Shown piece by piece: positions 112-22,691 of a DNA stretch of 22,715 nucleotides (positions within the stretch are counted from its first letter, which is position 1; each line of letters begins with the position of its first letter). Both the position numbers and the translations under genes were made by a program. This DNA comes from a virus. The notes under the pieces are model-generated. The model ran no database searches. It had not been told where the DNA came from and worked only from the letters and a program-made list of their open reading frames with translations. The stretch spans positions 1 to 22,715 of IMG/VR virus record IMGVR_UViG_3300044640_002097; one strand, written 5' to 3'.

Positions 112-480
112 ATGTCTGTCGTAAGAGTAGGAGTTTCAGGTTCTCGTACAATAAAAGATAGAGAGTTTGTTTTTCAACAACTAGATTGGTATCTAAGTAG
201 ATTAAAAATGGATTATGAATTAATACTTTTACATGGAGGAGCTAAAGGATTTGACAGTTTATGTGAAAGTTGGGCGAAAAAGAATAAAATAAAAACAGAA
301 ATTTACTTACCTCAATACGACTTACATCCACCAAAACTTGCTCCTATTCTAAGAAACGAAACAATAGTTAACAATTCAGACTACTTTATAGCAATCCAAC
401 AGAATGACTCAAAAGGCACACAAGACGCAATAAACAAAGCAATTAAAAGAGGTTTACCAATAAAAATAATTAAGCTATGA
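112..480 (+). CDS. SLOG-fold (YspA/DUF2493-like) nucleotide-binding protein
   Basis: A 122-residue protein with the features of the YspA-type SLOG (DprA/YpsA-related Rossmann) family: GVSGSR near residues 7-12 as the first strand and loop, LLHGGAKGFDSL in the middle, a conserved RNE, and the late KGTQDAI segment that matches the family's SrGT. Such proteins bind nucleotides or nucleotide derivatives; some act as sensors or nucleotide-processing enzymes, but the phage versions have no established substrate. Length is normal and the fold looks complete. Its TGA overlaps the ATG of the next gene, so the two are probably translated together. The family call is strong; the role is unknown. Confidence 0.8.
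   Translation: MSVVRVGVSGSRTIKDREFVFQQLDWYLSRLKMDYELILLHGGAKGFDSLCESWAKKNKIKTEIYLPQYDLHPPKLAPILRNETIVNNSDYFIAIQQNDSKGTQDAINKAIKRGLPIKIIKL
272..300 (-). repeat. Dispersed G/C-core motif, copy 1
   Basis: Read leftward: TCTGTTTT, AT spacer, TTTTT, core CGCCC. It lies in the rightward SLOG gene, antisense to it (codons for WAKKNKIKTE). Confidence 0.55.
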
Positions 481-752
481 AAGAAAAAGAATATTGGCAA
501 GAGCTCAATGAAAAATACAACGTTTTTCCAAATGGAGAAATAATGGATGGTGATTTAGATAAGTGGATTAAAAAAGACAGAGAACAAAGTGAGTATCTAA
601 TCGATAAATATGGAAAGTCAGCTTGGAATATATGGAGATTTATGGAACTTTGCCGAGCAGAAGATATAAGTGAGAGTTTCTTCCGTCAGTTGGTTAGATA
701 TGAAATGGACAAATGTTTTAAAGAATTAAAAGATGAAAATAGAACCACTTAA
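477..752 (+). CDS. Hypothetical protein, 91 aa
   Basis: A charged, probably helical protein rich in Lys, Glu, Trp and Arg, with no signal peptide or membrane segment. I do not recognise the family. The ATG overlaps the stop of the SLOG gene (ATGA), and its own 3' end runs 20 bp into the next small gene, as is usual in tightly packed phage units. The sequence gives no catalytic motif. Its place in the short rightward cluster, opposite to the replication genes, suggests an accessory role, but this is inference only. Confidence 0.7.
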   Translation: MKEKEYWQELNEKYNVFPNGEIMDGDLDKWIKKDREQSEYLIDKYGKSAWNIWRFMELCRAEDISESFFRQLVRYEMDKCFKELKDENRTT

Positions 753-909
753 CTTAGAACTATCAGAAAATTTAAAATACATAATTCAGCTACAAGAAGA
801 ATTACAAACTAAAATGGATAATAGTATTTTAGGAATACCTGTTCATTATTGTGAAAGTTCAGGAGAGAAATGTGATAAACAATGTAAATTTTGTAAATAT
901 GAAAAATAA
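733..909 (+). CDS. Small cysteine-rich protein, 58 aa
   Basis: A short frame with ATG at 733 and TAA at 907-909. The N-terminal half is an amphipathic helix rich in Leu and Gln; the C-terminal half carries four cysteines in the order YCESSGEKC, DKQC, KFC, spaced C-x6-C-x3-C-x2-C, which could hold a zinc ion. It overlaps the gene before by 20 bp and the gene after by 11 bp, filling what would otherwise be the only gap in this cluster. No family was recognised. The cysteine spacing and perfect tiling argue that it is a real gene. Confidence 0.6.
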   Translation: MKIEPLNLELSENLKYIIQLQEELQTKMDNSILGIPVHYCESSGEKCDKQCKFCKYEK

Positions 910-1156
910 AATACAAAAAGGTCTAAAAATAAATATATGTAGGTGGGATTGGAATGGTGTAGATGTTATTGAAGAAGTGATAGAAGTAGAGATTATTAAT
1001 GATAGTTCTGCATGGGTATACACAAAACACGGTAAAGTGAAATTTGATAGGAGTAAAGAAAATAATGCAGGAAGATTTAAATGGAAAAATAAGAAAAAGT
1101 ATTCATGGGAATCTGTATACCAAACAAATATTGACTTAAAAGAATATTACTTATGA
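899..1156 (+). CDS. Hypothetical protein, 85 aa
   Basis: The frame is open from a GTG at 851, but that start lies deep inside the preceding cysteine-rich gene. The ATG at 899 gives an 85-residue protein with only an 11-bp overlap and is preferred. The protein looks like alternating beta strands (for example VIEEVIEVEIIND) with many aromatic and charged residues in the second half. Its TGA overlaps the ATG of the next gene. No known domain or motif is recognised. Confidence 0.65.
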   Translation: MKNKIQKGLKINICRWDWNGVDVIEEVIEVEIINDSSAWVYTKHGKVKFDRSKENNAGRFKWKNKKKYSWESVYQTNIDLKEYYL

Positions 1157-1539
1157 ATAAAAGAGAAATAGATTTATTAAAACTTAATTTTGAGAAAAAT
1201 GAACACCAAAGGTCATTTCAACTATCAAAATATGATTCAACTTGGTACGTTGATTTTTGGAAGATTTCAGACTATACAGAGCACAAATGGAGTATTCTTA
1301 TAGAAGATATAAAATATGACCTAGAAATGGTTAAAAAGCGCTATTTTGAGGATTTAAAACAACACCCTGCCTATGATTTTGCGCAAAAAGAAATAAAACA
1401 GAAACTTTTAAATAAACTAAACCACTACAAAAGTAATCTAAAACAAGAAACAGCAGTAAAACTAACTAAAATAATAAACCAAGATAAAGTAAAAGAGTTA
1501 GAAATAAGAATAGAAACTTTAAAAGAGTTGATAAAATGA
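1153..1539 (+). CDS. Hypothetical coiled-coil protein, 128 aa
   Basis: A 128-residue soluble protein. Roughly residues 50-128 are Lys/Glu/Leu-rich and read as long helices, ending in a heptad-like stretch (KVKELEIRIETLKELIK), so a coiled coil is likely. It starts with an ATGA overlap on the gene before it and ends with an ATGA overlap on the gene after it. A copy of the dispersed G/C-core motif lies inside it around 1377-1403, on the strand opposite to the gene. No family recognised. Confidence 0.7.
   Translation: MNKREIDLLKLNFEKNEHQRSFQLSKYDSTWYVDFWKISDYTEHKWSILIEDIKYDLEMVKKRYFEDLKQHPAYDFAQKEIKQKLLNKLNHYKSNLKQETAVKLTKIINQDKVKELEIRIETLKELIK
1377..1403 (-). repeat. Dispersed G/C-core motif, copy 2
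   Basis: Leftward: TCTGTTTTATTTC, TTTTT, core GCGC, AAAAT. It lies antisense in the rightward 128-aa gene. Confidence 0.6.
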
Positions 1540-1694
1540 AACCACTAGGTCGGCTAAAAAAGCTAAAAGGAGGATTCCCATGGAAACAAAATCTTTTTAA
1601 AATAGGAAATTGGTGGGAAGAAATGACAGAACCAATAAGTAATAAATCGGCAAGAAGAAGATTAAAGCAGCAACTAAAAAGAGAAAACCCATAA
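1536..1694 (+). CDS. Small basic protein, 52 aa
   Basis: ATG at 1536 overlaps the preceding TGA (ATGA) and the frame ends at TAA 1692-1694, inside the stem of the terminator that closes this cluster. The peptide is strongly basic, with Lys/Arg clusters at both ends (GRLKKLKGG and SARRRLKQQLKRE) and a Trp-rich middle (GNWWEE). A small nucleic-acid-binding peptide is possible but not shown. The overlap with the gene before and the exact fit to the terminator support a real gene. Confidence 0.55.
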   Translation: MKPLGRLKKLKGGFPWKQNLFKIGNWWEEMTEPISNKSARRRLKQQLKRENP

Positions 1695-1721
1695 GACTTA
1701 AATCCTATGGGTTATTTTTTT
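1686..1721. terminator. Bidirectional intrinsic terminator between convergent units
   Basis: AACCCATA (1686-1693) pairs with TATGGGTT (1706-1713). On the plus strand this is followed by ATTTTTTTATTT; on the minus strand G-U pairs lengthen the stem and it is followed by TTTTCTCTTTTT. It lies exactly between the last rightward gene and the last leftward gene, so it can end both transcripts. Confidence 0.8.
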
Positions 1722-1983: not shown

Positions 1984-1986
1984 AAT

Positions 1987-2223: not shown

Positions 2224-2258
2224 AATTTCTATTTCTTGAACTCTGTTCTTTTATTCGA

Positions 2259-2290
2259 CAAATATAAGACTTATTTTTGAGGTGTGCAAG
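2259..2290 (-). promoter_or_regulatory. Promoter P1 (Bacteroidota type)
   Basis: Read leftward: TTG (2289-2287), a 20-nt spacer, then TATATTTG (2266-2259), a perfect TAnnTTTG -7 element. The spacer shares CTCAAAAATAAGT with promoter P2. It lies 35 bp before the 78-aa gene, so the leader is short, and downstream of a terminator that isolates it from the phosphoesterase unit. Confidence 0.8.
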
Positions 2291-2325
2291 GAAATTTCAT
2301 AAAAACTTTGATTTATTTTTAAATT

Positions 2326-2351
2326 CGCCGCGTAAAAGACTAAAAAACAGA
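2326..2351 (-). repeat. Dispersed G/C-core motif, copy 3 (intergenic)
   Basis: Leftward: TCTGTTTTTTAGTC, TTTT, core CGCGGCG, AATTT. It lies between the phosphoesterase terminator and promoter P1, with no coding constraint. Confidence 0.7.
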
Positions 2352-2354
2352 CAA

Positions 2355-5097: not shown

Positions 5098-5355
5098 TTA
5101 TAAGTAGGCACTGCTGCATATCACTTCATTCCAAGTTTGACCTTGCATAAATTCCTCTATTGTTGTTTTTAAATTGTCTTCATCATATTGAATCCACACA
5201 TCTTTCCATTTTTTGCGCGGAAAAAGAGTTAAAGAAGAAATTCCATCTTTGTCACACATTGTCTCCTCAATATACCATTCTCTAGCATTCTTCTTACTAC
5301 CATCAAAACAGAAGTACGTTGTATCTTCTTGTTCTTCTACTTGCCAAACTTTCAT
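5098..5355 (-). CDS. Hypothetical protein, 85 aa
   Basis: An acidic 85-residue soluble protein with many aromatic residues (KVWQVEEQEDTTYFCFDGS at the start, a Trp-rich KKWKDVWIQYDEDN in the middle). The first half resembles small phage proteins that begin with a beta hairpin, but I recognise no family. It is joined to the 109-aa gene upstream by an ATGA overlap. A weaker copy of the dispersed motif (5215-5241) is read here as SLTLFPRKK. Confidence 0.65.
   Translation of the reverse strand: MKVWQVEEQEDTTYFCFDGSKKNAREWYIEETMCDKDGISSLTLFPRKKWKDVWIQYDEDNLKTTIEEFMQGQTWNEVICSSAYL
5215..5241 (-). repeat. Dispersed G/C-core motif, copy 5 (weaker)
   Basis: Leftward: TTCTTCTTTAACTC, TTTTT, core CCGCGC, AAAAAA. 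The TCTG part is changed to TCTTC. Confidence 0.4.
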
Positions 5356-5841: not shown

Positions 5842-6006
5842 CTAAACTGTTTCTATTACTACATCTACGTTATTGTAGCCTGCATCAAAGTAGATTAAAG
5901 ATTGTTCTCCATATTCAAGAGTTAACTTATCTACTATTTCTTTAAGTTCTTTAAGTGTGCCTTTAAAGTCTTCTAATTCTGCTATATCAATTTGATTTTT
6001 TGTCAT
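5842..6006 (-). CDS. Small hypothetical protein, 54 aa
   Basis: ATG at 6006 and TAG at 5844-5842, overlapping the end of the gene before by 20 bp. The N-terminal 30 residues form a Leu/Glu/Lys-rich helix (AELEDFKGTLKELKEIVDKL), then a short beta-rich tail (YGEQSLIYFDAGYNNVDVV). This helix-then-strand pattern looks like a folded small domain. Function unknown; the tiling with its neighbours supports it as a gene. Confidence 0.6.
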   Translation of the reverse strand: MTKNQIDIAELEDFKGTLKELKEIVDKLTLEYGEQSLIYFDAGYNNVDVVIETV

Positions 6007-6226
6007 AACTCTCTATAAATTTATTGTATAATTCTTCTGTTTCAAATTCTTTATCGTCCCCTAAGTATTTAATCCACCTATCAGAATGTAAATGAATGTA
6101 ATTTTCCGCGCAAAAAAGGCTAAAAGAAACTGAAAAATTTTTAACAACATTCTCTAACTCATCTAAAGTATCTTTCTTTAAACCACCAAAAGGTTCATTT
6201 AATAAAAATCTAAGGTTTTGTTTCAT
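5987..6226 (-). CDS. Hypothetical protein, 79 aa
   Basis: A 79-residue soluble protein starting MKQNLRFLLNEPFGGLKKDT, with no recognised motif. A copy of the dispersed motif at 6106-6134 is read in frame as FSVSFSLFCAEN, an odd run of Ser and Phe in an otherwise charged protein, so part of the protein sequence may be dictated by the DNA signal. It overlaps both the upstream and downstream genes. Confidence 0.65.
   Translation of the reverse strand: MKQNLRFLLNEPFGGLKKDTLDELENVVKNFSVSFSLFCAENYIHLHSDRWIKYLGDDKEFETEELYNKFIESYDKKSN
6106..6134 (-). repeat. Dispersed G/C-core motif, copy 6
   Basis: Leftward: TCAGTTTCTTTTAGCC, TTTTTT, core GCGCGG, AAAATT. It codes for a Ser/Phe-rich run in the 79-aa gene. 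Confidence 0.5.
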
Positions 6227-7096: not shown

Positions 7097-7112
7097 AATT
7101 TCTAATTTTTTA

Positions 7113-7143
7113 CAAATATACTAATTAATTTTTAATCTCACAA
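7113..7143 (-). promoter_or_regulatory. Promoter P4 (Bacteroidota type)
   Basis: Leftward: TTG (7143-7141), 20-nt spacer, TATATTTG (7120-7113). The spacer shares ATTAAAAATTAATTA with P3 and GAGATT with P5. It lies 16 bp before the ATG of the 37-aa membrane protein, so the leader is nearly absent, and it drives the unit ending at the terminator at 2355-2384. Confidence 0.8.
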
Positions 7144-7151
7144 GGAAAATT

Positions 7152-7301
7152 TTAATTTTCTTTTATAGTGATTACTTTATTTCTATTTTCTGTTTTTATT
7201 TCTACTTTTTGCGGAAAATTAGCTATACAATCTAAGCAACAAAGTACAAACTTAGGTTTATACGTTTTCCAATCTTCTCTTAAAAATTGCTGTTTATCCA
7301 T
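7152..7301 (-). CDS. Small hypothetical protein, 49 aa, with CCxxC
   Basis: ATG at 7301 overlaps the last codons of the primase-like gene; TAA at 7154-7152 lies just upstream of P4. The middle carries VLCCLDC, a possible metal-binding cysteine cluster. A copy of the dispersed motif (7189-7220) lies in the C-terminal half, read on the complementary strand and giving NFPQKVEIKTEN. No family recognised. It is the last gene of the P2 unit. Confidence 0.55.
   Translation of the reverse strand: MDKQQFLREDWKTYKPKFVLCCLDCIANFPQKVEIKTENRNKVITIKEN
7189..7220 (+). repeat. Dispersed G/C-core motif, copy 7
   Basis: Rightward: TCTGTTTTTATTTC, TAC, TTTTT, core GCGG, AAAATT. It lies antisense in the 49-aa gene before P4. 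Confidence 0.65.
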
Positions 7302-8306: not shown

Positions 8307-8600
8307 TTAATAATCAACACTATCAATAATTTGTCTCTCTAAGTCTTTATAATCAAATTCTACATCATTTGAATTCTCATCAATAACTCTTAAATTACTT
8401 ATAAAAACATCTCTTGACACTTCTTCCATTGTACTTTCATCTAAATATCCGCCGTAAAAAGAATTAAAAACAACAGAAAAACTTAAATCAAATAACACCC
8501 AATAATCCCCTAATTCAATCTCATAACTATCGTTATAAGAAGCATAATCACCATCAAAATCTAAAGGTACAGTGATTTGTTTGTTGAAGTTTATTTTCAT
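8307..8600 (-). CDS. Hypothetical acidic protein, 97 aa
   Basis: An acidic protein that reads as beta strands (MKINFNKQITVPLDFDGDY, then IELGDYWVLFDLSFSVVF). Its VFNSFYGGYL segment is encoded by a copy of the dispersed motif (8449-8478). The C-terminal half is rich in Asp and Glu. No known family. Its start overlaps the stop of the 47-aa gene by ATGA. Confidence 0.65.
   Translation of the reverse strand: MKINFNKQITVPLDFDGDYASYNDSYEIELGDYWVLFDLSFSVVFNSFYGGYLDESTMEEVSRDVFISNLRVIDENSNDVEFDYKDLERQIIDSVDY
8449..8478 (-). repeat. Dispersed G/C-core motif, copy 8
   Basis: Leftward: TCTGTTGTTTTTAATTC, TTTTT, A, core CGGCGG, ATATT. It lies in the 97-aa gene, codon phase TCT-GTT. Confidence 0.65.
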
Positions 8601-8740
8601 AGTTTAAATATTTTTCGTTTTCTAGTGTTTTTTGCGCCGTAAAAAAGAATTAAAAGAGATTCTTTCTCTAAATACTCCACTCTTGGACTAAATCTAAGTT
8701 CTATAAAAAGAACAGCTATAAGTAATAGTAGTATTGTCAT
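8597..8740 (-). CDS. Small membrane protein, 47 aa
   Basis: ATG at 8740 and TGA at 8599-8597, with an ATGA overlap on the next gene and a 4-bp overlap on the gene before. MTILLLLIAVLFIELRF is a single hydrophobic helix at the N-terminus (membrane anchor or uncleaved signal), followed by a basic tail (KNTRKRKIFKL). A copy of the dispersed motif at 8634-8660 codes for ILFYGAKN. No family recognised, but the overlaps and the clear hydrophobic helix support it. Confidence 0.6.
   Translation of the reverse strand: MTILLLLIAVLFIELRFSPRVEYLEKESLLILFYGAKNTRKRKIFKL
8634..8660 (-). repeat. Dispersed G/C-core motif, copy 9
   Basis: Leftward: TCTCTTTTAATTC, TTTTTT, A, core CGGCGC, AAAAAA. It lies in the 47-aa membrane protein gene, only 156 bp from copy 8. 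Confidence 0.55.
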
Positions 8741-8955
8741 TTTTTACAAATTTGTTTAATTAAAAATCTATTATAATCTTCATTAGTTAAATGTTGAATA
8801 TACCATAGTTTCTGCCCTAACTCTAAAAAATTATATCTTTCTCCTTGAAGTATATGTTTCCACTTCTTTTTAAATTTTCTTGGCACTCTTTTATAATTGA
8901 ATCCTATTGTTTTTGGTGCTGTAAAATGTTTTTCAAGCTCTTCGTATGGTATCAT
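8737..8955 (-). CDS. Hypothetical basic protein, 72 aa
   Basis: A 72-residue basic protein with a Lys/Arg-rich middle (NYKRVPRKFKKKWKHILQGE) and a helical end (NEDYNRFLIKQICKK). It may contact nucleic acid, but no known domain is visible. ATGA overlaps connect it to the genes on both sides. Confidence 0.65.
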   Translation of the reverse strand: MIPYEELEKHFTAPKTIGFNYKRVPRKFKKKWKHILQGERYNFLELGQKLWYIQHLTNEDYNRFLIKQICKK

Positions 8956-9179
8956 TTTATTAAAATTTTAAGTGTATTAATTGTAAATTCAACTGTCCTA
9001 TAATCAGCTCCCGTATCAATATATTCTTCTAATTCTTTTATCCGCGCCAAAACACTTGAAACAGAAATATAACATAAGTCATCATCATTAATCCTACTAT
9101 CACTCCAAGATACTTCAAAGTCTTGACATTCTCCGTCTGCACCTATGTTTAAGTAGATTTTTGTTGGTTGGTTTTTCAT
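8952..9179 (-). CDS. Hypothetical protein, 75 aa
   Basis: A 75-residue acidic protein. The start MKNQPTKIYLNIGADGECQ reads as a beta strand and turn, and the second half is helical (VLARIKELEEYIDTGADYRTVE). The dispersed motif at 9042-9066 codes for SVSSVLARIK here. Phage proteins with a short strand followed by a helix of this kind are common in Bacteroidota phages, but no function is known. ATGA overlap with the next gene. Confidence 0.65.
   Translation of the reverse strand: MKNQPTKIYLNIGADGECQDFEVSWSDSRINDDDLCYISVSSVLARIKELEEYIDTGADYRTVEFTINTLKILIK
9042..9066 (-). repeat. Dispersed G/C-core motif, copy 10
   Basis: Leftward: TCTGTTTCAAGTG, TTTT, core GGCGCGG, ATAAA. It lies in the 75-aa gene and is the last copy before a 4.2-kb stretch without any. 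Confidence 0.5.
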
Positions 9180-9855: not shown

Positions 9856-9906
9856 AATTTCTATATTTGTGTTCAATTTTCCGCAATAGAACTGATTAAT
9901 TTTTGT

Positions 9907-9937
9907 CAAAGATATAACTTATTTTTGAGATGTGCAA
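9907..9937 (-). promoter_or_regulatory. Promoter P2 (Bacteroidota type)
   Basis: Leftward: TTG (9937-9935), 20-nt spacer, TATCTTTG (9914-9907). Except for a few bases it copies P1 (shared TTGCACA and CTCAAAAATAAGT). It begins only 7 bp after the stop of the homing endonuclease gene and leaves a leader of about 45 nt before the HD gene, with a weak hairpin GTTC/GAAC at 9871-9892. Confidence 0.8.
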
Positions 9938-9944
9938 GTAATCT

Positions 9945-10993: not shown

Positions 10994-11088
10994 AATGCCT
11001 CTACAAAATCAATGTTGGGTCTGAAGCAACATCTCATTCATAAAGGCAATATCTTAAATGTTATTCTTATAGTTTCAGACCAATAACA
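10994..11088 (-). promoter_or_regulatory. Structured 5' leader with two kissing-loop hairpins
   Basis: Read leftward from just below P3. Hairpin 1: TGTTATT (11088-11082) pairs with AATAACA (11065-11059) around a 16-nt loop that starts GGTCTGAA (11081-11074). Hairpin 2: ATTGCCT (11050-11044) with AGGCATT (11000-10994), one U-U mismatch, then an 11/11 internal loop, then ATGTTG (11032-11027) with CAACAT (11017-11012) around a 9-nt loop C-TTCAGACC. The last 8 nt of that loop are the exact complement of GGTCTGAA in loop 1. The start codon is 21 nt after the structure. None of the other four promoters has such a leader. Confidence 0.6.
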
Positions 11089-11091
11089 GTG

Positions 11092-11122
11092 CAAATATAA
11101 TAATTAATTTTTAATTGTGCAA
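11092..11122 (-). promoter_or_regulatory. Promoter P3 (Bacteroidota type)
   Basis: Leftward: TTTG with TTG at 11122-11120, 20-nt spacer, TATATTTG (11099-11092). The spacer shares ATTAAAAATTAATTA with P4 and the box shares TTGCACA with P1 and P2. It lies between the polymerase stop (21 bp away) and the structured leader of the homing endonuclease gene. I see no hairpin terminator between the polymerase gene and P3. Confidence 0.8.
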
Positions 11123-11143
11123 ATCATTTAACACGGTTTTAAC

Positions 11144-13099
11144 TTAGTGTACATCCCCATAATTTTTTCCTTTTTGGACATCAATTTTTAAAGGTACTCT
11201 TAATTTAGCTTGTTTATTCACAGCTTCAATACTTTCCCATAAAAGAGATTTTACTCTTTCATAATCATTTGATTTACAAACAGTTAAAATTTCATCGTGG
11301 AAATTTCCTACAATTTTGATACCCTTTCTTCGTATATAAGCACACCATAAAATATGTAAGTAACTCCCTGCGCCTTGGTTTACTGTAGAAAAAATATCAG
11401 ATTCCTTTCTAAGTGTATAAAAATAACCATTTAGGGGATTTTTAACCCACATTTGATGTCTTACTGTTTTTACTTCACATTGAGAACTAAAAATCTTTAC
11501 TGCCTGATTAAGTTTCCAATACCCATCTAAAAGTTGTTGAGCCTCTTTTTCTGATATTTTTAACTCTTTTGCAAGTTTTTTCTTACCTACTCCATAAAGT
11601 GCACTGTATGACGTAGTTTTCGCCTTATTTCTAATAATATTTAACTTTGAGAATTGTTCAGATATTTCTTCATCATTGTATACCTTATAAAATTCAGGTA
11701 GTGTATTTCTATCTTTAGTACCTTTTTTGTACCACTTGTAAAAATCTTCATCCTCTTGAGACATCATACCTGCAAATATTGCAAGTTGTGTATGACTATC
11801 ATAATCAGGGTCAGATAAAATATCAATAGCTTTAGGGTCAATATCTGCTACAAAGTTAGTCCTTGTGTAATTTTCAAGAGAGCTTAAATCTGAACCAACA
11901 AAAACTTCATCAGCTTCACAAGTTAAAACAGGTCTAACATATTCTCCATAAGGAGCAGATATTTTTGGAAGATTTACTAAAGTTTTATGTCTTAGACGTA
12001 TAGTATTAGTCAAACCCCCTATCTGAGCTTGAATATAACCATTTGGTTGTACATTTTTTAAAAAACTCTCCAGGTAGGATTTTCTATGGTTGATAACTGA
12101 TAAATCATCAAGAGCTATTAACTCAGGTACTTTTTCAACTAATTTTAGAACACTCTTACAAAGGTTCTTATCTTTATCTTTTATCTGTTCAACTTGTTTT
12201 AACTCACCTTTTGTATTTACTGTTTCTACATATATTTCGGGAATCCATCCAAGGCTAAACAAATACTGCTTAACTTGTGAGACGCTTACGGGGTTGCTTT
12301 CAGAATACCCTGTAATCTCTTCTATAACTCCATCGTAGTCATCAGGTAAACCACAAGCCTTTACAAGATACATCCAACGCTCTCCACTAGAAGATAAACT
12401 TCCATCTTTTTTGAACATATTCTTAGGTTTAGTTCTCTTAGATTTTATAGGTATTTTTGGCATGATAGTTTTTAGGATGTCTATTTTTTCCTGTGCCATT
12501 TTAGTTAGTATTTCTAAGTTTTCTCTACACTTGTTAATATCTAACTTTATGCCATAGGTTTCTTGGTCTGCTACTATTTGCATAACCTCCGCCAAGAATC
12601 TAAGATAACTTTCTATTTTAGCTAAATCCCCATCATAAATTTCCTTTAAATAATTTAAGCAATCTTCCCATAGAGCTATGTTAATTTTAACGTCCTCTCT
12701 AACACGATTAGCATATTCTTCATAGGTTAAATCAGTCCAAGACTCAATTTTAGGTTTTTGTAGTCCATAATCCTCTGCAAAAAATTCTAAACCATATTTC
12801 AATCTATTTGGAAATAGTGCCCAAGATAAGGGTAAAGTATCTATAATAAAAGCTTTTACTTCTATACCTAATACTTTTTCTAATGCTTTTTTATCAAATA
12901 AGTATCCATTATGAAATACACAAACTTTTGTTGGGTCTGATAAAACTTTTATCATATCGTCATACTTAGCTGTATCTTTTAAAGCCCAAGAGTTATCTTT
13001 TGTTTTCCAACCTATACCAAAAGTGTGTATTTTAGTAAGTGAGTCTAAAAATCCGTCACTTTCACAATCACAAACATAAATACCATTATCTAAATTCAT
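11144..13099 (-). CDS. Family A DNA polymerase with 3'-5' exonuclease domain
   Basis: A 651-residue T7-type replicative DNA polymerase. The exonuclease domain shows D11 and E13 (CDCESDG), HNGYLFD with D69, and D136 (VREDVK), so proofreading looks active. The polymerase domain shows motif A GSDLSSLE (D404, E409), motif B R490-x3-K494-x3-Y498-x3-YG, and motif C HDE (601-603). No 5'-3' exonuclease domain is present, as in phage T7. Tyr498 corresponds to T7 Tyr526, the residue linked to poor discrimination against dideoxynucleotides. The gene is last in the P5 unit and its ATG overlaps the stop of the 54-aa gene. The dispersed motif is absent from it. Confidence 0.95.
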   Translation of the reverse strand: MNLDNGIYVCDCESDGFLDSLTKIHTFGIGWKTKDNSWALKDTAKYDDMIKVLSDPTKVCVFHNGYLFDKKALEKVLGIEVKAFIIDTLPLSWALFPNRLKYGLEFFAEDYGLQKPKIESWTDLTYEEYANRVREDVKINIALWEDCLNYLKEIYDGDLAKIESYLRFLAEVMQIVADQETYGIKLDINKCRENLEILTKMAQEKIDILKTIMPKIPIKSKRTKPKNMFKKDGSLSSSGERWMYLVKACGLPDDYDGVIEEITGYSESNPVSVSQVKQYLFSLGWIPEIYVETVNTKGELKQVEQIKDKDKNLCKSVLKLVEKVPELIALDDLSVINHRKSYLESFLKNVQPNGYIQAQIGGLTNTIRLRHKTLVNLPKISAPYGEYVRPVLTCEADEVFVGSDLSSLENYTRTNFVADIDPKAIDILSDPDYDSHTQLAIFAGMMSQEDEDFYKWYKKGTKDRNTLPEFYKVYNDEEISEQFSKLNIIRNKAKTTSYSALYGVGKKKLAKELKISEKEAQQLLDGYWKLNQAVKIFSSQCEVKTVRHQMWVKNPLNGYFYTLRKESDIFSTVNQGAGSYLHILWCAYIRRKGIKIVGNFHDEILTVCKSNDYERVKSLLWESIEAVNKQAKLRVPLKIDVQKGKNYGDVH

Positions 13100-13260
13100 A
13101 CCTTCTCAAATTTACTATAAAAATCTTTTTCTTCTCTTGTAAAAACTAATCCTGATTCTATTTGTTCGTAGACTATTGAATTATACCACACTCTTGACTT
13201 TCTACTTTTTGATTTTGAGAAGTATAGTATTTTATATGTTTTTTCTTTGTATTTGTACAT
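13096..13260 (-). CDS. Small protein, possibly DUF1653-like, 54 aa
   Basis: ATG at 13260 and TGA at 13098-13096, with an ATGA overlap on the polymerase start. The order YKYKEKTYKILYFSK, then VWYNSIVYEQ, then LVFTREEKDFYSKFEKV recalls DUF1653, a small beta domain built on Y-K-x-K-x-Y-x-V-L and R-x-x-x-x-F. The likeness is by eye and not strong. The translational link to the polymerase argues that the gene is real. A copy of the dispersed motif (13269-13300) lies immediately upstream of its start. Confidence 0.65.
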   Translation of the reverse strand: MYKYKEKTYKILYFSKSKSRKSRVWYNSIVYEQIESGLVFTREEKDFYSKFEKV

Positions 13261-13268: not shown

Positions 13269-13300
13269 TCTGTTTTTTAATCTTTTTCGCGCGAAATTAA
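13269..13300 (+). repeat. Dispersed G/C-core motif, copy 11 (intergenic)
   Basis: Rightward: TCTGTTTTTTAATC, TTTTT, core CGCGCG, AAATT. It fills the gap between the 130-aa gene and the start of the 54-aa gene. Confidence 0.75.
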
Positions 13301-13689
13301 GCCTCAAAATTACTTGTTAATCTTAACCACCAACCTATAGATTTTTTCAATTCTTTTCTAAAAGCTGTAAATATATTATCAATTTCCCACATCTCTTCAT
13401 CTGTAATCCAACGGACAAAGTAAAAATCAACTCTACTGCTCCACTCTCCTAAAGTGTTATCTACAAACTTACCTTTGCTGTAGTTTATAAAATGTATTAT
13501 AGGGTATCCATCATCTAAGTAGATACACATTGCTAATTTTTTATGTTTATTCTTTTTAGCTTCGTGAACAGCGTTATATTGACATCTGAAATTGTATCTA
13601 CACTTACCTGCTTTTACTTTTATCTTTTTATAGTTAGCTATTGTGTAGTTTACTATTTTTTGTTTTGCTTCATGGTTGTTGTAATTCAT
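13297..13689 (-). CDS. Hypothetical protein, 130 aa
   Basis: A basic, aromatic-rich protein: an N-terminal helix rich in Lys and Tyr, a Cys pair (GKCRYNFRCQYN), a beta-rich centre (LAMCIYLDDGYPIIHFINYSKG) and a Trp-rich end (IGWWLRLTSNFEA). Proteins of this make-up are common next to replication genes in flavobacterial phages, but no function is known to me. The start codon abuts a copy of the dispersed motif at 13689-13718, and its stop overlaps another copy (13269-13300), so it is framed by two copies. Confidence 0.7.
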   Translation of the reverse strand: MNYNNHEAKQKIVNYTIANYKKIKVKAGKCRYNFRCQYNAVHEAKKNKHKKLAMCIYLDDGYPIIHFINYSKGKFVDNTLGEWSSRVDFYFVRWITDEEMWEIDNIFTAFRKELKKSIGWWLRLTSNFEA

Positions 13690-13718
13690 CTGTTTTTATT
13701 TTTTACGCGCCAAATTAA
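13689..13718 (+). repeat. Dispersed G/C-core motif, copy 12 (intergenic)
   Basis: Rightward: TCTGTTTTTATTTTTT, A, core CGCGCC, AAATT. It fills the gap between the 93-aa and 130-aa genes and touches the start codon of the latter. Confidence 0.75.
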
Positions 13719-13996: not shown

Positions 13997-14593
13997 TTAC
14001 TTAAAGTTTTCATTAAACACTTTGTTTAGATTATCTATTTTCTGTTGTTCTAATGTTTTTGCGGAATTTATTAATTCTTCTACTTGTCTATTTTGTTCGT
14101 CTTTTATCTTGTAAGGTATTTCTAAGTTTGTAACATCCTCCACTTTCCAACCACCATCATCAAGAGTAAAATTATAACTGCCTTCTAAAATATATTCTTG
14201 CTCTTGAAAAAGTGTAGAGAAAGGAATTGACCATTCTAAATCTAAGTTTGTATACTCAACTGAGTATTTACTTATTGTAAAGTAATATCCATAATTGGTT
14301 AGTTTATAAATAGGACTGACTCTACCTTTCAATCTATAAATTTTCCAACGTTTCTTTACAATTTTCGCCAAAAAAGAATTAAAACAGAAAGTTAAAACTC
14401 TATAAACAACAGCTAGTAGTTGTAAACCAATAGCCCATATAGCAGTAGCTTCTAAAGGTTTACTAGTTTTAAAACCAAATATAAATTCTAAACTAATACT
14501 AACCAAAATTGTAAACCCTATCCAAAATAACCATAGATAACTGTTTCTTTTTTCTTTTAATACGGAACGTTGTTCTTCTGTTCTATCTTCCAT
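13997..14593 (-). CDS. Membrane protein with two helices, 198 aa
   Basis: The open frame can be extended upstream to 14671, but that part lies inside the methylase gene; the ATG at 14593 (MEDRTEEQ) overlaps the methylase by only 11 bp and is preferred. Two hydrophobic helices follow: SYLWLFWIGFTILVSISLEF and ATAIWAIGLQLLAVVYRVL, the first after a basic N-terminus. The remaining 120 residues are soluble, beta-rich and end in a helical tail, likely on the cytoplasmic side. No family recognised. Two copies of the dispersed motif (14041-14070, 14366-14390) lie in it, on opposite strands. Confidence 0.65.
   Translation of the reverse strand: MEDRTEEQRSVLKEKRNSYLWLFWIGFTILVSISLEFIFGFKTSKPLEATAIWAIGLQLLAVVYRVLTFCFNSFLAKIVKKRWKIYRLKGRVSPIYKLTNYGYYFTISKYSVEYTNLDLEWSIPFSTLFQEQEYILEGSYNFTLDDGGWKVEDVTNLEIPYKIKDEQNRQVEELINSAKTLEQQKIDNLNKVFNENFK
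14041..14070 (+). repeat. Dispersed G/C-core motif, copy 13
   Basis: Rightward: TCTGTTGTTCTAATG, TTTTT, core GCGG, AATTT. It lies antisense in the 198-aa membrane protein gene. Confidence 0.6.
14366..14390 (-). repeat. Dispersed G/C-core motif, copy 14
   Basis: Leftward: TCTGTTTTAATTC, TTTTTT, core GGCG, AAAATT. A near-consensus copy in the 198-aa gene, codon phase TTC-TGT, different from copy 8. Confidence 0.7.
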
Positions 14594-15609: not shown

Positions 15610-16539
15610 TTATATTTCTAAATATTCTATTAAATTTAATAATGTTTCTGTTGTACAACCTTTACCTTTAACTACTGCGTCTATGTCAGCTAAACTAAAT
15701 CTTTTTTTATTTAATCTGATTAACTCTTCTACTTCTTTCTTTGTTTTAAATCTTTTTCCCGCCCACTTATCAGCCGTAAAATTACCAAAAGATGTTTTTA
15801 CACATTTGAAAAACTTATCATCATAGATATAAAAAGTCTGACCCTCTACAATTTGCTGTCCATCTGCTGTTTTGTAGTTTTTATAGGTATTAATATATTC
15901 TTCTGCATTTTCTCTTTTGGCGAAAGTTTTAAATTTACTAAAATCTTCATCGCCTTTAAAAAGACAAGATGTTTCACAAATATTATCTGCATCTCCAATA
16001 TAGTAAAATACATCCCCTACATAAATATCTTTACCATCAAAAGACTGAAAAATAGGAAGTTTTACCAATCTCACAGCTCCTAACTTAGAGGTATGATTAC
16101 CATAATAAACTATTATTTTATTATTTATTACTTCAAATTTTGATATAAACCCACAGATAGTATCTTCATTACCAAACTGAACTTTATTTTTTAATTCAAA
16201 CACTTCTCCTGTTGGTAAATATTTTACAGAGTGAATTTTATGTATACTTTCATCCCAAAAACCTAAAACTTCTTCCCATGTAGCTCCTTTATTTGTGTAG
16301 GTCAATTCATACTTTTCACCTAAATAATTTCCATTTTCTCTTTTGGTAACAAGACCTACATCATAATAAGAATAACTTAAAACCTCATAATCCTTATAAA
16401 CTACCTCTTCATAGTCACAAGAGTTTTCTACTAACTCACTTGGAATATAATAACCTTCGTATTTATCTGAATAATAAGATTTTCCATTACCGCTTTTATT
16501 AAATACAGCTTGTGTACCTTTATGTTTATATTGTTTCAT
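15610..16539 (-). CDS. Large hypothetical protein with SVK-x-L-x-x-GEVF repeat motif, 309 aa
   Basis: A beta-rich soluble protein. The segment IHSVKYLPTGEVFELKNKVQ (about residues 101-120) matches a motif (SVKRLSDGEVFxVGD) that recurs in hypothetical proteins of Bacteroidota phages, usually as a small beta unit; related turns recur later (FQSFDGKDIYVGDVFYY, then KTADGQQIVEGQTFYIYDD), so the protein is probably built from several such units. The last 50 residues are helical (KEVEELIRLNKKRFSLADI). A copy of the dispersed motif lies in this part at 15738-15765. Role unknown; position between RNase H and the methylase. Confidence 0.7.
   Translation of the reverse strand: MKQYKHKGTQAVFNKSGNGKSYYSDKYEGYYIPSELVENSCDYEEVVYKDYEVLSYSYYDVGLVTKRENGNYLGEKYELTYTNKGATWEEVLGFWDESIHKIHSVKYLPTGEVFELKNKVQFGNEDTICGFISKFEVINNKIIVYYGNHTSKLGAVRLVKLPIFQSFDGKDIYVGDVFYYIGDADNICETSCLFKGDEDFSKFKTFAKRENAEEYINTYKNYKTADGQQIVEGQTFYIYDDKFFKCVKTSFGNFTADKWAGKRFKTKKEVEELIRLNKKRFSLADIDAVVKGKGCTTETLLNLIEYLEI
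15738..15765 (+). repeat. Dispersed G/C-core motif, copy 15 (weaker)
   Basis: Rightward: TCTTTGTTTTAAATC, TTTTT, core CCCGCCC. It lies antisense in the 309-aa gene. Confidence 0.4.
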
Positions 16540-16728: not shown

Positions 16729-17190
16729 TTATTTTATTTGTTGTCTCATCCATTTTTTTGCATTTTTATCTAATTTATCATTAACCCAACTCCTTGAGTC
16801 CGAAGTTCCGTTATGGCTCTTTACATGCTTGAATTCTAAATTTTTACAATGTGTTCTTGATTTTAAATCATTTAAAAGTTTAGCTATTAATTGTTCTACT
16901 TTTGATTTATTTTTCTTATTTGTTACACAACCAACTGCACCTAAACAATCTGTATTGAATACTATCTTTTTTATTTTTGGTAATTCTTTTTGCGCCAAAA
17001 TTGTAGCTAAAGCATTTCCAAAACATTTCATCTCTGCATCAATAGAAGATTTAGGATTTTGTTTAAATTTACCTGATTTCTCTATTTTAAATAAATCACA
17101 AATAATATAAAAAGCATACCCACCAACTTTATGTATTGGATGAAAAGAAGCATCTGTGTTTATAGTTAAACAGTTTATAGTTTTATCCAT
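16729..17190 (-). CDS. Ribonuclease H (RNase H1-like)
   Basis: A 153-residue type 1 RNase H. The acidic residues are D13 (INTDASF), E53 (DAEMKC) and D81 (FNTDC), and the last metal ligand is probably in VNDKLD near residues 136-141; VKSHNG supplies the conserved His. It removes RNA from RNA-DNA hybrids, likely primers made by the PrimPol-like primase, which matters here because the family A polymerase lacks a 5'-3' exonuclease domain. Normal length, no hybrid-binding domain. Its start overlaps the 70-aa gene by 16 bp. Confidence 0.88.
   Translation of the reverse strand: MDKTINCLTINTDASFHPIHKVGGYAFYIICDLFKIEKSGKFKQNPKSSIDAEMKCFGNALATILAQKELPKIKKIVFNTDCLGAVGCVTNKKNKSKVEQLIAKLLNDLKSRTHCKNLEFKHVKSHNGTSDSRSWVNDKLDKNAKKWMRQQIK
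16966..17000 (+). repeat. Dispersed G/C-core motif, copy 16 (weaker)
   Basis: Rightward: TCTTTTTTATTTTTGG, TAATTC, TTTTT, core GCGCC, AAAA. The first part is further away than usual. It lies in the RNase H gene. Confidence 0.4.
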
Positions 17191-17387
17191 TTACGCATCC
17201 ATTTTGTATATTCCATTTGATAATAGAATTCATTAAAATATTTTCTTCTGTATTTTACTTTTTGTTGCCGAAGTTTAGTCCACCCAAATAACTCATCTGT
17301 TTTATAAAATTTTCCGCCAAAAAAAGTTAAGTAAAGAACTGAAAAACAGATTGTGGTACGATATTTTTCTAATTTAATTTCTTCCAT
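17175..17387 (-). CDS. Hypothetical basic protein, 70 aa
   Basis: A 70-residue protein, very basic in the second half (TKLRQQKVKYRRKYFNEF) with several Tyr and Trp residues. The N-terminal ICFSVLYLTFFGGKFYKTD is encoded by a complete palindromic copy of the dispersed motif (17296-17350) and could pass for a weak membrane segment; that hydrophobic run may be a by-product of the DNA signal. Overlaps the genes on both sides by 14-16 bp. No family recognised. Confidence 0.6.
   Translation of the reverse strand: MEEIKLEKYRTTICFSVLYLTFFGGKFYKTDELFGWTKLRQQKVKYRRKYFNEFYYQMEYTKWMRKWIKL
17296..17350. repeat. Dispersed G/C-core motif, copy 17 (two arms, palindromic)
   Basis: TCTGTTTT at 17296-17303 and its exact complement AAAACAGA at 17343-17350 flank one core CCGCC (17314-17318) with T tract on one side and A tract on the other. 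Both orientations of the motif are thus present around one core. Confidence 0.75.
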
Positions 17388-18296: not shown

Positions 18297-18316
18297 AATT
18301 ATTTATTTTTATACGG

Positions 18317-18347
18317 CAAATATATAACATTATTTTCAATCTCGCAA
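18317..18347 (-). promoter_or_regulatory. Promoter P5 (Bacteroidota type)
   Basis: Leftward: TTTG with TTG at 18347-18345, 20-nt spacer, TATATTTG (18324-18317). The spacer begins CGAGATTGAAAATAA, sharing GAGATT and the A tract with P4. It lies just after the terminator of the helicase unit and serves the unit that ends with the DNA polymerase. Confidence 0.85.
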
Positions 18348-18368
18348 ATAAAATTGAATAAAAAATAA

Positions 18369-18394: not shown

Positions 18395-18405
18395 ATATAA
18401 AATTT

Positions 18406-18430
18406 CGCACAAAAATTAATCAAAAACAGA
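18406..18430 (-). repeat. Dispersed G/C-core motif, copy 18
   Basis: Leftward: TCTGTTTTTGATTAA, TTTTTG, core TGCG, AAATTTT. It overlaps the helicase stop codon just before the terminator. Confidence 0.6.
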
Positions 18431-19534: not shown

Positions 19535-20101
19535 TTAATATTCTTCAAATGTTTTTTCTAATCTTTCTCTGTTCTTAATGAAATGATTCCACAACCACGA
19601 TTCTTCCAAATCAAAACGTGTTGCAAAAGCAGTTTTGGGGTAATACCAAATATATTCTAACTTCTTACTTCTTTCTTCATTTTCCGCCAAAAAATCTAAG
19701 ACAAGATTAATAAGATTGTTCTTTTGAATCCCACTTTTCAAACGGAAATCACGTATATGTCTTTGAGTTTTAGCACCATTTCCAATATCTTTACCTGCTT
19801 TAATGTAGTAGTTTTTCAACCACTCAAAGACAGTTTTATCTTCAGGTGCAATTTCTGCTTCTTCTAACTCAGATAAAAGTGACTTTCCTAAATCACTTAA
19901 TCTAACGCTATTATAAAGATGTTCTTTTTTAGACTTCTGCTTTATATGTTTTATAAGAGAAAGTCCCTCAAAACGCTCATAATCACTTTCTTTTAGGTTT
20001 TCTATGAGCCAATCTGTTTCAGTTTGATTAATTGCGCATAAAAAAACTAAATCAGAATATTCTAAACCTGACTTTCCTAATACCGATAGATTTACATACA
20101 T
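19535..20101 (-). CDS. Winged-helix protein, candidate helicase loader or initiator
   Basis: A 188-residue protein. Residues 1-80 read as a winged helix: SGLEYSDLVFLCAINQTE, then YERFEGLSLIKHIKQ and VRLSDLGKSLLSELEE (wing and last helix). The second half is helical and basic (KAGKDIGNGAKTQRHIRDF) and ends with FDLEESWLWNHFIKNRER, a pattern seen in hypothetical proteins beside phage DnaB helicases. It lies 3 bp upstream of the helicase, the place where phage helicase loaders or DnaD-like initiators usually sit. The role is inferred from position and fold only. Confidence 0.65.
   Translation of the reverse strand: MYVNLSVLGKSGLEYSDLVFLCAINQTETDWLIENLKESDYERFEGLSLIKHIKQKSKKEHLYNSVRLSDLGKSLLSELEEAEIAPEDKTVFEWLKNYYIKAGKDIGNGAKTQRHIRDFRLKSGIQKNNLINLVLDFLAENEERSKKLEYIWYYPKTAFATRFDLEESWLWNHFIKNRERLEKTFEEY
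20034..20056 (-). repeat. Dispersed G/C-core motif, copy 19
   Basis: Leftward: TCTGATTTAG, TTTTTTT, A, core TGCGC, AATT. It lies in the winged-helix gene. Confidence 0.5.
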
Positions 20102-20474: not shown

Positions 20475-20846
20475 TTAGCATATTAGATTTACTTCTTTAA
20501 AATTCTTATCGCAGTATTCTTTAGCTTGTTCTATGCTTTCAAAATATTCTGTTTTTATTTGTTTTCCGCCCGAAAAAATCTCTATTTTAGGTTTTGACCA
20601 AACACAATTATCTTTAATAAAATGCCAATGTTCAAGTTCTAAAGGTGTGTCATTTGAAATAAATTTCCTTTTACAATTCCTGTAAAATCCCGCAGGATAA
20701 TTTAAAATCTTATAAAACCAAAGAAATAAGAAACTGTCTTCTTCCATCCAAACATAATCTATTGTTCCAAATAGGTATCTTACACCTTTACACTCATCAT
20801 AAATCTTTATATGACTTACTTGTTGAGGATTAATTCTTGTTTGCAT
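20475..20846 (-). CDS. Hypothetical protein, 123 aa
   Basis: A mixed protein rich in Tyr, Trp and Phe (IDYVWMEEDSFLFLWFYKIL) that ends with YFESIEQAKEYCDKNF, a helix pattern common at the ends of small phage proteins. A copy of the dispersed motif (20548-20578) on the complementary strand codes for SGGKQIKTEYF. No signal peptide or known domain. It follows the 118-aa gene by 3 bp and precedes the secreted protein by 28 bp. Confidence 0.65.
   Translation of the reverse strand: MQTRINPQQVSHIKIYDECKGVRYLFGTIDYVWMEEDSFLFLWFYKILNYPAGFYRNCKRKFISNDTPLELEHWHFIKDNCVWSKPKIEIFSGGKQIKTEYFESIEQAKEYCDKNFKEVNLIC
20548..20578 (+). repeat. Dispersed G/C-core motif, copy 20
   Basis: Rightward: TCTGTTTTTATTTG, TTTT, core CCGCCCG, AAAAAA. 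It lies antisense in the 123-aa gene. Confidence 0.65.
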
Positions 20847-20849
20847 AGT

Positions 20850-21206: not shown

Positions 21207-21208
21207 AA

Positions 21209-21481
21209 TTAAAATTTCTTTAGTTTATTAAACTCTTTTTTACTTAAAACAATATCACAAGTTTTGCTCTTACCGCCAAACAATATTTTTAATCTTTCCC
21301 AAAAACTATATCTCTCGTTTAAATATTGATAAACAGTAATATAAACATCCTCCTCATCTTCCCACTTAGAAACTCTTAATAATTCTGTTTCACAAGTACA
21401 AGGTAAATATAAATCTTTTCTTTTTGGTGAAGTGTAATTGTATTCATGTGTTACAAGTCCGTCGTTGTATGTTAGTACCAT
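21209..21481 (-). CDS. Conserved small phage protein, 90 aa
   Basis: The order LPCTCETELLRVSKWEDEED, then YITVYQYLNERYSFWERLK, then ILFGGKSKTCDIVLSKKEFN with a C-terminal KKF matches a small hypothetical family found in many phages: a C-x-C near the start, a beta hairpin, then SFWERLRxxWRIL and a last DxxxLxxxE strand and helix. Function is unknown. Its ATG overlaps the end of the MazG-like gene by one base, so the pair is probably coupled. Confidence 0.7.
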   Translation of the reverse strand: MVLTYNDGLVTHEYNYTSPKRKDLYLPCTCETELLRVSKWEDEEDVYITVYQYLNERYSFWERLKILFGGKSKTCDIVLSKKEFNKLKKF

Positions 21482-21888
21482 TATAAAAACTGTTTTAAAT
21501 TTGGTTCTGAAAAATTCTTTGATTTTAATATTTTACCTTTTGCACGAGTTTCATCCCACACTCCATTTTCTCCATTAACAATAGGTAATCCGTCATCATC
21601 TAATTTACTCATATTTGAACGTTGAACCTCTTCAAAACATTTTTCAATGATATTCTGCATCCCATGTTCTAAGATTGTCCCATAAAGGATATAAAGTTCA
21701 TCGGTAAGAGCGTCTGCAATTTCAACTAAATCATTATTTTGAACAGCTTCTAAATATTCTTCATTCTCTTCTTTCATTAACTCAAACCTGAGTTTAGCTT
21801 TTTCTTTACTGATTAAAGTTGGTTGTGTTTCCACATTTTGTCCAAAAGCTCTTTGGAAAGTTGCAACTTGTGCTAATTGTTTTTGCAT
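21481..21888 (-). CDS. MazG-like / PRA-PH family nucleotide pyrophosphohydrolase
   Basis: A 135-residue all-alpha NTP pyrophosphatase of the MazG / phosphoribosyl-ATP pyrophosphohydrolase superfamily. The metal-binding residues are E40, E41 and E44 (MKEENEEYLE), with E56, D59 and D63 (EIADALTDELY), and the late RSNMSKLDDDG and KGKILKSKNFSEPNL segments are typical of the phage PRA-PH-like branch. Such enzymes hydrolyse (d)NTPs or related nucleotides to monophosphates; in phages they are thought to shift nucleotide or alarmone pools. Complete, normal length. The 264-aa gene lies 8 bp upstream. Confidence 0.88.
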   Translation of the reverse strand: MQKQLAQVATFQRAFGQNVETQPTLISKEKAKLRFELMKEENEEYLEAVQNNDLVEIADALTDELYILYGTILEHGMQNIIEKCFEEVQRSNMSKLDDDGLPIVNGENGVWDETRAKGKILKSKNFSEPNLKQFL

Positions 21889-21896
21889 AATTTATT

Positions 21897-22691
21897 TTAT
21901 TTCTTTATTAATTCACAAATATATTTACCTAAATTCTCAACTACGTTTCCTGGTCTAGTTAAATCTATATATTCTACTACAAAAGTATGAAAATCTTTTT
22001 GAATATCAAAATTTTCATCAATAATTAAACATTTTTCATACTTGTCAGCCACAACCTTACTACCCTTTAATTTAGCAATTTTAATCTCTACATCTAAATT
22101 AAAGTTATAGTGCTTTTTTATTTCTAAGGCGAAAGGTGTGATATACTCAACTTCATCTACTATGATAGAAGGCTCTGAAAAAGTTTGGGGTTTTGTTTCA
22201 ACTGTTACTTCACTACTATAACTCCATAAACTGTCTTCTATTGTTTTAATCTTTTTTCCGCCGATTTTACAATCTTTTTGTTTTCTAACTTTATCAATCA
22301 GCCAATCATAGGAACTGACCTCTCCAAATTCTTCATAAATTTCAGTGGTTATCTTTTTAACTGCTTCTGAAATCCAATCAGAATAACTACAATTACTGCT
22401 TAAAAACTCTTTTTCTTCTGTTTTGAAATCTTTTGTTATTACAGTTCTTAAAAATTCTTCATTGTCAGTGTCTTGAATTGCATAAGATATACTTTGCTCA
22501 ACAGAGTAGACATTGTTTAAAATACGTCTTTCATCAATCTCTCCAAATTTAATATTCCAAGCAAATCTACTAGGTCTGTCTCTATCTTCATAAACTAAAA
22601 TATTTTGTTTGTAAATTCTAAGATAATTTTCCTTATTTTCCAAACATTCAACAGAATCGGATACTTTAAATAAAGGCTTTTCAAAATTCAT
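21897..22691 (-). CDS. Hypothetical protein, 264 aa
   Basis: A large soluble protein, acidic, with no signal peptide or membrane helix. The first half is beta-rich (ENYLRIYKQNILVYEDRDRP), the middle has a helical part with a Lys-rich segment (DKVRKQKDCKIGGKKIKT), and the end is mixed alpha/beta. I do not recognise the family and see no catalytic motif. The DNA motif at 22238-22267 lies under the KIGGKKIKT part. Only 24 bp remain upstream in the window, without a complete promoter, so it may be preceded by further genes of the same unit. Confidence 0.65.
   Translation of the reverse strand: MNFEKPLFKVSDSVECLENKENYLRIYKQNILVYEDRDRPSRFAWNIKFGEIDERRILNNVYSVEQSISYAIQDTDNEEFLRTVITKDFKTEEKEFLSSNCSYSDWISEAVKKITTEIYEEFGEVSSYDWLIDKVRKQKDCKIGGKKIKTIEDSLWSYSSEVTVETKPQTFSEPSIIVDEVEYITPFALEIKKHYNFNLDVEIKIAKLKGSKVVADKYEKCLIIDENFDIQKDFHTFVVEYIDLTRPGNVVENLGKYICELIKK
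22238..22267 (+). repeat. Dispersed G/C-core motif, copy 21
   Basis: Rightward: CTATTGTTTTAATC, TTTTTT, core CCGCCG, ATTTT. It lies antisense in the 264-aa gene. Confidence 0.5.

Follow-up and report, generated by a model that had tools for sequence, protein, structure and literature searches.

The window, by which we mean the whole stretch of 22,715 nucleotides that was analysed, is a 22.7-kb viral fragment without structural genes; G013 and other relatives have large structural proteins. Scattered over it is a DNA word of about 40 letters, asymmetric, in which two T-rich tracts are followed by a short core made only of G and C and then by A's, with the conserved form TTCTGTTTTWWTTCTTTTT-[CG]4-7-AAAATT. 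The copies found in the window are listed here, with their scores on the two-block matrix described below.

272..299, minus strand: candidate copy matched by the strict pattern only; poor right flank, no score from the matrix
1375..1402, minus strand: copy with core GCGC, 24.5 bits, in gene 1153-1539(+)
2320..2351, minus strand: copy with core CGCGGCG, 23.8 bits, between genes; a minus-strand promoter is predicted here, and the copy lies about 70 bp upstream of its -7 box
5209..5238, minus strand: copy with core CCGCGC, 14.8 bits, in gene 5098-5355(-)
6100..6133, minus strand: copy with core GCGCGG, 17.5 bits, in gene 5987-6226(-), where it encodes SVSFSLFCAENY
7189..7220, plus strand: copy with core GCGG, 25.1 bits
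8443..8477, minus strand: copy with core CGGCGG, 22.2 bits, in gene 8307-8600(-)
8628..8659, minus strand: copy with core CGGCGC, 14.5 bits, a near-dyad with 9.9 bits on the other strand
9036..9065, minus strand: copy with core GGCGCGG, 19.2 bits, in gene 8952-9179(-)
13269..13299, plus strand: copy with core CGCGCG, 27.4 bits, filling a gap with a minus-strand gene on each side
13689..13717, plus strand: copy with core CGCGCC, 25.6 bits, filling the gap before gene 13297-13689(-)
14041..14070, plus strand: copy with core GCGG, 20.2 bits, in gene 13997-14593(-); identical in relative G010
14360..14388, minus strand: copy with core GGCG, 29.6 bits, the highest-scoring
15902..15928, plus strand: copy with core GGCG, 16.3 bits, in gene 15610-16539(-)
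16970..17002, plus strand: copy with core GCGCC, 17.5 bits, in the RNase H gene 16729-17190(-); identical in G010
17296..17324, plus strand: copy with core CCGCC and both arms, 16.1 and 13.3 bits, in gene 17175-17387(-)
18400..18430, minus strand: copy with core GTGCG, 16.2 bits, next to the DnaB-like helicase gene, at its 3' end
19678..19706, minus strand: weak copy with core GGCGG, about 7 bits on each strand
20028..20056, minus strand: weak copy with core GCGC, 9.2 bits
20548..20578, plus strand: copy with core CCGCCCG, 23.9 bits, in gene 20475-20846(-)
22240..22269, plus strand: copy with core CCGCCG, 20.2 bits, in gene 21897-22691(-)

The core has no fixed sequence: any G/C string holding a CpG is found, most often ending in CG or GG, and over 30 distinct cores, 3-9 nt long, were recorded rather than one palindromic octamer. 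The T-tracts lie about 11 bp apart, around one helical turn. An earlier note, made from the letters of the window, had described this context; its two-block form with a G/C core stands, while the AATTC placed between the blocks proved to be preferred only weakly, and the core was found to lie 8-12 nt from TCTGTTTT. Full dyad symmetry was significant in a first test and became marginal once the control was matched (second arm of at least 8 bits in 17% vs 11%), and the motif was thus treated as asymmetric with occasional dyads, such as that at 17314. Folding z-scores were close to 0 on both strands, the sites matched no Rfam family, and a description of the motif was not found in the literature.

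The matrix was trained only on related virus contigs, with the window held out, and sites of at least 6 bits were counted; since unseeded EM drifted to the general AT context, seeded blocks were used, and k-mer z-scores proved too blunt for a gapped motif. With this matrix, the window contains 20 sites, compared to 0.75-1.1 in order-2 Markov controls, in agreement with the roughly 20 dispersed copies on both strands previously proposed, and the 11 copies then indicated as the best are all among them. The strict pattern, TCTGTTTT-N(3-18)-TTTT-N-SSSS, matched 10 times, with one site counted twice, whereas dinucleotide shuffles gave 0.01 matches. This pattern also recovers the copy claimed at 272, to which the matrix gives no support. 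The richest relatives hold 103, 87, 61 and 57 matrix sites, where 2.8-6 were expected, and a separate pattern scan revealed enrichment in further contigs too.

Two thirds of the sites lie inside genes, on both strands and in all three codon phases, so that the placement in genes and gaps and in differing phases first noticed in the window is confirmed. In all, 302 genic sites were counted, 3.7-fold the 81.6 found in a synonymous shuffle that keeps proteins and codon usage, and compared to 21.2 in a codon-order shuffle. These data support that the motif is selected at the DNA level and is not explained by protein constraint, as had been argued before, and an excess of this size, with the proteins fixed as well as with the codon order free, indicates a strong selective agent acting on the phage DNA. 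Over all genomes, the A-rich strand is the coding one in 218 genic sites and the T-rich strand in 79; the former gives Lys-rich stretches and the latter the Ser/Phe runs to which attention had been drawn, which are therefore the less frequent outcome.

The comparison between relatives allowed us to follow how sites come and go. At homologous positions, 46 sites were present in both genomes and 48 were lost; about half of the positions thus lack the site, and single sites are dispensable. Shared sites were more conserved than their flanks by 0.041 ± 0.016, a value inflated by the condition that both genomes have a site; at 22240..22269, for instance, the identity with relative G004 is 0.91 at the site and 0.78 in the flank. 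Core letters that had changed remained G or C in a fraction of 0.45, vs 0.16 in flanks (P = 3e-4). In L006, another relative, a site is made by 12 substitutions within 32 bp, the region around it being otherwise 89% identical. The relatives' proteins show no excess of gaps at sites (0.149 vs 0.133, P = 0.96, 92 sites), and any gap at the site occurs in only 17% of the site/no-site pairs; in G004, the copy at 7189..7220 has 12 extra bases between both T blocks. Sites are thus gained and lost by substitution, not by insertion. A small mobile element inserting its own copies, which the earlier note had entertained as a spreading micro-element, could have accounted for so many like copies, each about 40 bp long, and the copy at 14360..14388 does lie in a segment of about 147 bp (14313-14460) that is missing from L006. 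However, this segment is far longer than the motif and does not end at it, the core is not copied, and, together with the ungapped proteins, this leaves such an element largely refuted and highly improbable.

The motif is carried by more than 15 contigs, all from a single lineage of environmental sequences related to Cellulophaga phage phi17:2 and the epsilon crAss-like phages. According to the DnaB-like helicase (42.5% identical between the window and phi17:2) and a large structural protein, the closest named phages appear to be Cellulophaga phi4:1/phi17:2 (Lightbulbvirus) and the epsilon crAss-like phages; unlike the window, however, phi17:2 has a single site in 145 kb, and a pattern scan of csAssE-Sib found none. 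Ten named relatives were tested in total, and the motif is carried by none of them. Megablast of the window and of its relative L132 against phage records gave no match. In 300 Flavobacteriaceae genomes (roughly 1 Gb), which may not be those of the host, about 60 matches were found, close to the reversed-pattern control, and the same pattern gives 3 matches in the 22.7-kb window; a scan of genome contigs returned, among the matches listed, scattered ones in unrelated bacteria and, among the loci scored, no dense one. Among the sequences tested, the motif is restricted to this phage lineage. Chi and DNA uptake sequences are short dispersed words used by a recombination or uptake machine and enriched in the cellular genome; the motif differs from them in that the Flavobacteriaceae sampled, possibly not its hosts, are not enriched, and a host Chi-like signal, another role suggested beforehand, is accordingly disfavoured.

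Placement along the genomes is far from uniform. Intergenic sites are 3-fold enriched (139 of 436, expected 44) and show no orientation bias, the T-rich strand being equal to the gene strand in 62 cases and opposite in 70. Sites avoid the region from -50 to 0 of predicted promoters, sitting on either side of them, and the majority lie away from promoters; an operator overlapping promoters was ruled out on this ground. Spacing is irregular on both strands. The sites are confined to the non-structural (early) half and are nearly missing from the structural operons: intergenic sites number 0 in four structural regions vs 47 elsewhere, and the density in G013 is 0.76 per 10 kb in the structural part vs 8.5 per 10 kb in the rest. 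Irregular spacing, the lack of intergenic strand bias and a structural half without sites speak against regular priming sites, also considered previously. An early half that a virion polymerase would transcribe, and the virion RNA polymerase encoded by epsilon crAss-like phages (PMC11054128), could suggest phage transcription signals, such as initiation or loading sites of this enzyme, but the unbiased intergenic orientation, the many antisense copies in genes and the lack of the motif in phi17:2 and csAssE-Sib, of the same lineage, make this improbable. Architectural or topoisomerase (e.g., gyrase) sites organising the early region would fit the random spacing on both strands and the T-tracts around a G/C core, which resemble bent or topoisomerase-preferred DNA; their absence from the structural half and the lack of enrichment in host-type chromosomes leave them little probability. 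Equally hard to credit are recombination or module-exchange sites, which would serve as short homologies where mosaic segments join: a UvsX/RecA-like recombinase is encoded in the lineage, the copies lie in the half with gene flux and the joint between L006 and the window at 13130 adjoins a copy, but many copies are within genes and alignments end within 20 bp of sites 15 times vs 14.8 at gene-boundary-matched positions.

Among known systems, the stoperators of the cluster A mycobacteriophages L5 and Bxb1, for which transcription silencing by repressor binding has been proposed, are 13 bp long, all oriented one way with respect to transcription, and found mostly between genes (PMC3029335). The motif shares with them dozens of short, asymmetric, dispersed sites (20 in the window and up to 103 per contig) and intergenic enrichment; by contrast, it is about 40 bp long, with a free G/C core, occurs in both orientations in gaps and genes alike, and is mainly genic. 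The localized single-strand interruptions of T5, phiKMV-like phages and phage tf are also dispersed phage sites, and the T5 consensus R/GCGCRGG contains a GCGC core, but they have a fixed nick sequence on one strand only (PMC3517423), whereas the motif has no fixed core and lies on both strands. Like HIP1 and other highly iterated palindromes, it is very frequent, has a G/C-rich part and is superimposed on coding DNA by substitution; HIP1, however, is a fixed 8-bp palindrome, methyltransferase-linked and found throughout cyanobacterial cellular genomes (PMC4390886), while the motif is asymmetric, belongs to phages, has a variable core and is limited to part of the genome. For HIP1, a model has been published in which sites would be made and kept by mismatch repair linked to methylation (PMC4390886). 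By analogy, the motif could be the product of biased mutation, repair or conversion with no function of its own, since sites appear through substitution without indels in genes and gaps alike, as in L006, and a methyltransferase-like protein (PHROG 799) is among those encoded in the window. We regard this as unlikely, though still deserving some weight: a motif of this length (about 40 bp), whose core is free and whose TCTG block lies at a distance, goes far beyond what methylases or short-patch repair are known to target, and a process acting genome-wide should neither spare the structural half nor favour intergenic gaps.

Taken together, the origin by substitution, the lack of RNA structure and of host enrichment, and the presence in both orientations refute an inserted micro-element and disfavour an RNA signal, a host Chi and strand-specific nicks. 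We suggest instead that the motif represents dispersed, non-directional sites on double-stranded DNA for one candidate binding protein, involved in silencing or architectural control of the early region, a reading to which we give an even chance. Protein binding, already put forward in the earlier note, would be the likeliest role, and silencing or architecture most likely its effect. One protein would read two T-tracts about one helical turn apart beside a G/C-only step, tolerating any G/C core; selection would place sites one base change at a time, in either orientation, within and between the genes of the early region, and would keep them from core promoters and the structural operon; the outcome could be a non-directional control, by roadblock or nucleoid-like organisation, comparable in effect to that of stoperators. 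As for the binder, the phosphoesterase (A1-like protein) indicated earlier is not supported, its gene being absent from three motif-rich contigs (G013, G015 and G007) and found in phi17:2, pT24 and G008, which are motif-poor. In a screen of gene presence and absence, four small families were shared by the four near-complete rich contigs and missing from phi17:2 and G008, none of them recognisable as DNA-binding; no family combined a recognisable DNA-binding character with presence in every near-complete motif-rich contig and absence from the motif-poor ones. Among the early proteins, a wHTH-like one is encoded beside DnaB in the window, at 19535-20101.

More tentatively, and with less probability than not, the motif might represent a new category of phage cis-element, namely a dense non-directional code of T-tracts and G/C cores superimposed on early-half coding DNA, read by a putative packaging, silencing or insulating protein and switched on or off between lineages independently of phylogeny. 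The motif is strong enough to bend the sequences of dozens of proteins, and its confinement to the early half, together with its patchy presence in deeply diverged crAss-related phages, an abundant and mostly uncultured group, makes it a case in which regulation or organisation across a whole genome can be tested. The reader of these sites, if found, would be a DNA-binding protein of a new kind, and might bring to light a further level at which early genes are controlled or the host is engaged.

A DNA motif recurring about 20 times in the window had been described in the earlier note, and both the motif and its copy number held up. A tightened form of the pattern gave 10 matches in the window vs 0.01 in dinucleotide shuffles, and a two-block matrix, trained on 88 sites from eight related contigs with the window sites excluded as a held-out test, gave 20 sites scoring 6 bits or more vs 1.1 expected (order-2 Markov). 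The matrix consists of TTTTCTGTTTTTA, then WTTCTTTTT, then a G/C core holding a CpG, then AAAATTTAA. TCTGTTTT and the core lie 8–12 nt apart, independently of core length (r = −0.07), and the T-tracts are about 11 bp apart. The cores, of 4–7 nt, comprise more than 30 distinct strings usually ending in CG or GG; an inverted second arm is found in a minority of sites and barely exceeds the matched control. No description of the motif was found in the open-access papers searched.

Relatives were collected by protein and pattern scans, and the matrix found 103 sites in G005 (5.6 expected), 87 in G013 (5.5), 61 in G015 (4.75) and 57 in G004 (2.75), all related contigs; the sites counted on these kindred, fragmentary genomes are not independent. 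Additional whole contigs were motif-rich on both strands. In a separate second pattern scan 32 of 91 scored loci, several on contigs met before, had 4 or more sites, exceeding the expectation at least fourfold; all 23 of the 32 whose gene content was checked belong to the same phage lineage. The nearest named phages are Cellulophaga phi17:2/phi4:1, csAssE-Sib being more distant: phi17:2 has 1 site in 145 kb, csAssE-Sib has no strict-pattern match, and none of nine named relatives has more than one such match. Protein trees, built on DnaB, on an exonuclease-like protein and on a large structural one, intersperse motif-poor phages (including G009, a 20-kb fragment with 3 sites) with motif-rich ones, and motif status is estimated to have changed at least two or three times. 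Among Flavobacteriaceae, which may not be the host's family, 55 of 300 genomes had a match, about as with the reversed control pattern; the window alone has 3 matches.

Protein constraint cannot explain the motif, as the earlier note had argued, since 302 genic sites were observed vs 81.6 expected when synonymous codons were shuffled within genes, keeping proteins and codon usage. Shuffling codon order lowered the expectation to 21.2, and the proteins themselves seem bent to the motif (81.6 vs 21.2). The codon-shuffle check put forward in the earlier note is thereby answered in the motif's favour. The coding strand was A-rich in 218 genic sites and T-rich in 79, with every phase used.

The suggestion of a spreading micro-element was not borne out, signs of insertion being absent. 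At homologous positions both members had the site in 46 pairs and one in 48, and just 17% of the latter showed a gap at the site; residues under 92 genic sites with aligned homologues were gapped at 0.149 vs 0.133 elsewhere, and in L006, another relative, the window sequence is turned into a site by 12 substitutions over 32 bp, indels being absent. Shared sites were slightly more conserved than their flanks, a figure inflated by counting only pairs in which both members carry the site, and core letters, when changed, remain G/C more often than flank letters do.

The window, a linear fragment of 22,715 bases with 28.8% G+C, makes up a whole IMG/VR record; its tightly packed genes, predominantly on the minus strand, encode an A1-like phosphoesterase, a family A DNA polymerase, a DnaB-like helicase, RNase H, a MazG-like pyrophosphohydrolase, a BT4734-type protein and others. 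A GIY-YIG endonuclease (PF01541) at 9945–10973 is likely a homing-type gene. The protein adjoining DnaB (19535–20101), kept in 14 of the phages compared, has no Pfam match and an N-terminus resembling, by eye, a winged helix; it is perhaps a helicase loader or initiator. The gene repertoire of these phages also includes a GroEL-like chaperonin and a recombinase resembling UvsX/RecA (G013, L283 14479–16011). Window 11090–13130 and L006 9970–12010 are 99.7% identical across the DNA polymerase gene, identity drops sharply on either side and the two mosaics are otherwise diverged; judged from sequence, this common segment is a recent exchange. A segment of about 147 bp (14313–14460), within which the best motif copy sits, is missing from L006, whose reading frame stays intact. 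The window also carries a second repeat:

Window 2254–2293, 7108–7147, 9902–9941, 11087–11126 and 18316–18349: dispersed repeat of about 40 nt, on the reverse strand TTGCACACCTCAAAAATAAGTCTTATATTTG

This repeat has the appearance of an extended, conserved promoter of Bacteroidetes type belonging to the window phage.

As for location, 139 of 436 motif sites of at least 8 bits were intergenic vs 44 expected, counts that are approximate with gene boundaries from a simple ORF caller. Between genes the orientation was balanced (62 vs 70), and spacing was irregular. Only 4 sites fell at −50 to 0 of predicted Bacteroidetes-type promoters vs 12.3 expected; the sites flank promoters. No RNA structure was detected at the sites. 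The structural regions of four contigs had 0 intergenic sites vs 47 in the remainder, and few genic ones; in G013 the structural part had 0.76 sites per 10 kb vs 8.5 per 10 kb. The main rival explanation, a HIP1-like repair bias creating the sites (PMC4390886), does not predict such regional confinement.

The phosphoesterase, proposed earlier as the binder, is unlikely in that role because its presence mismatches motif richness: the gene is absent in motif-rich G013, G015 and the related contig G007, whereas motif-poor phi17:2, pT24 and the contig G008 all have it. The closest working analogy is with stoperators (PMC3029335); two of their defining features, however, a single orientation and a mainly intergenic position, were looked for in the motif and are not shared by it. 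The motif is thus a site in double-stranded DNA that has no direction, is restricted to the early half, avoids core promoters and shows no detected RNA structure; it is best explained as a putative binding site for a protein that would coat, silence or organise early DNA.
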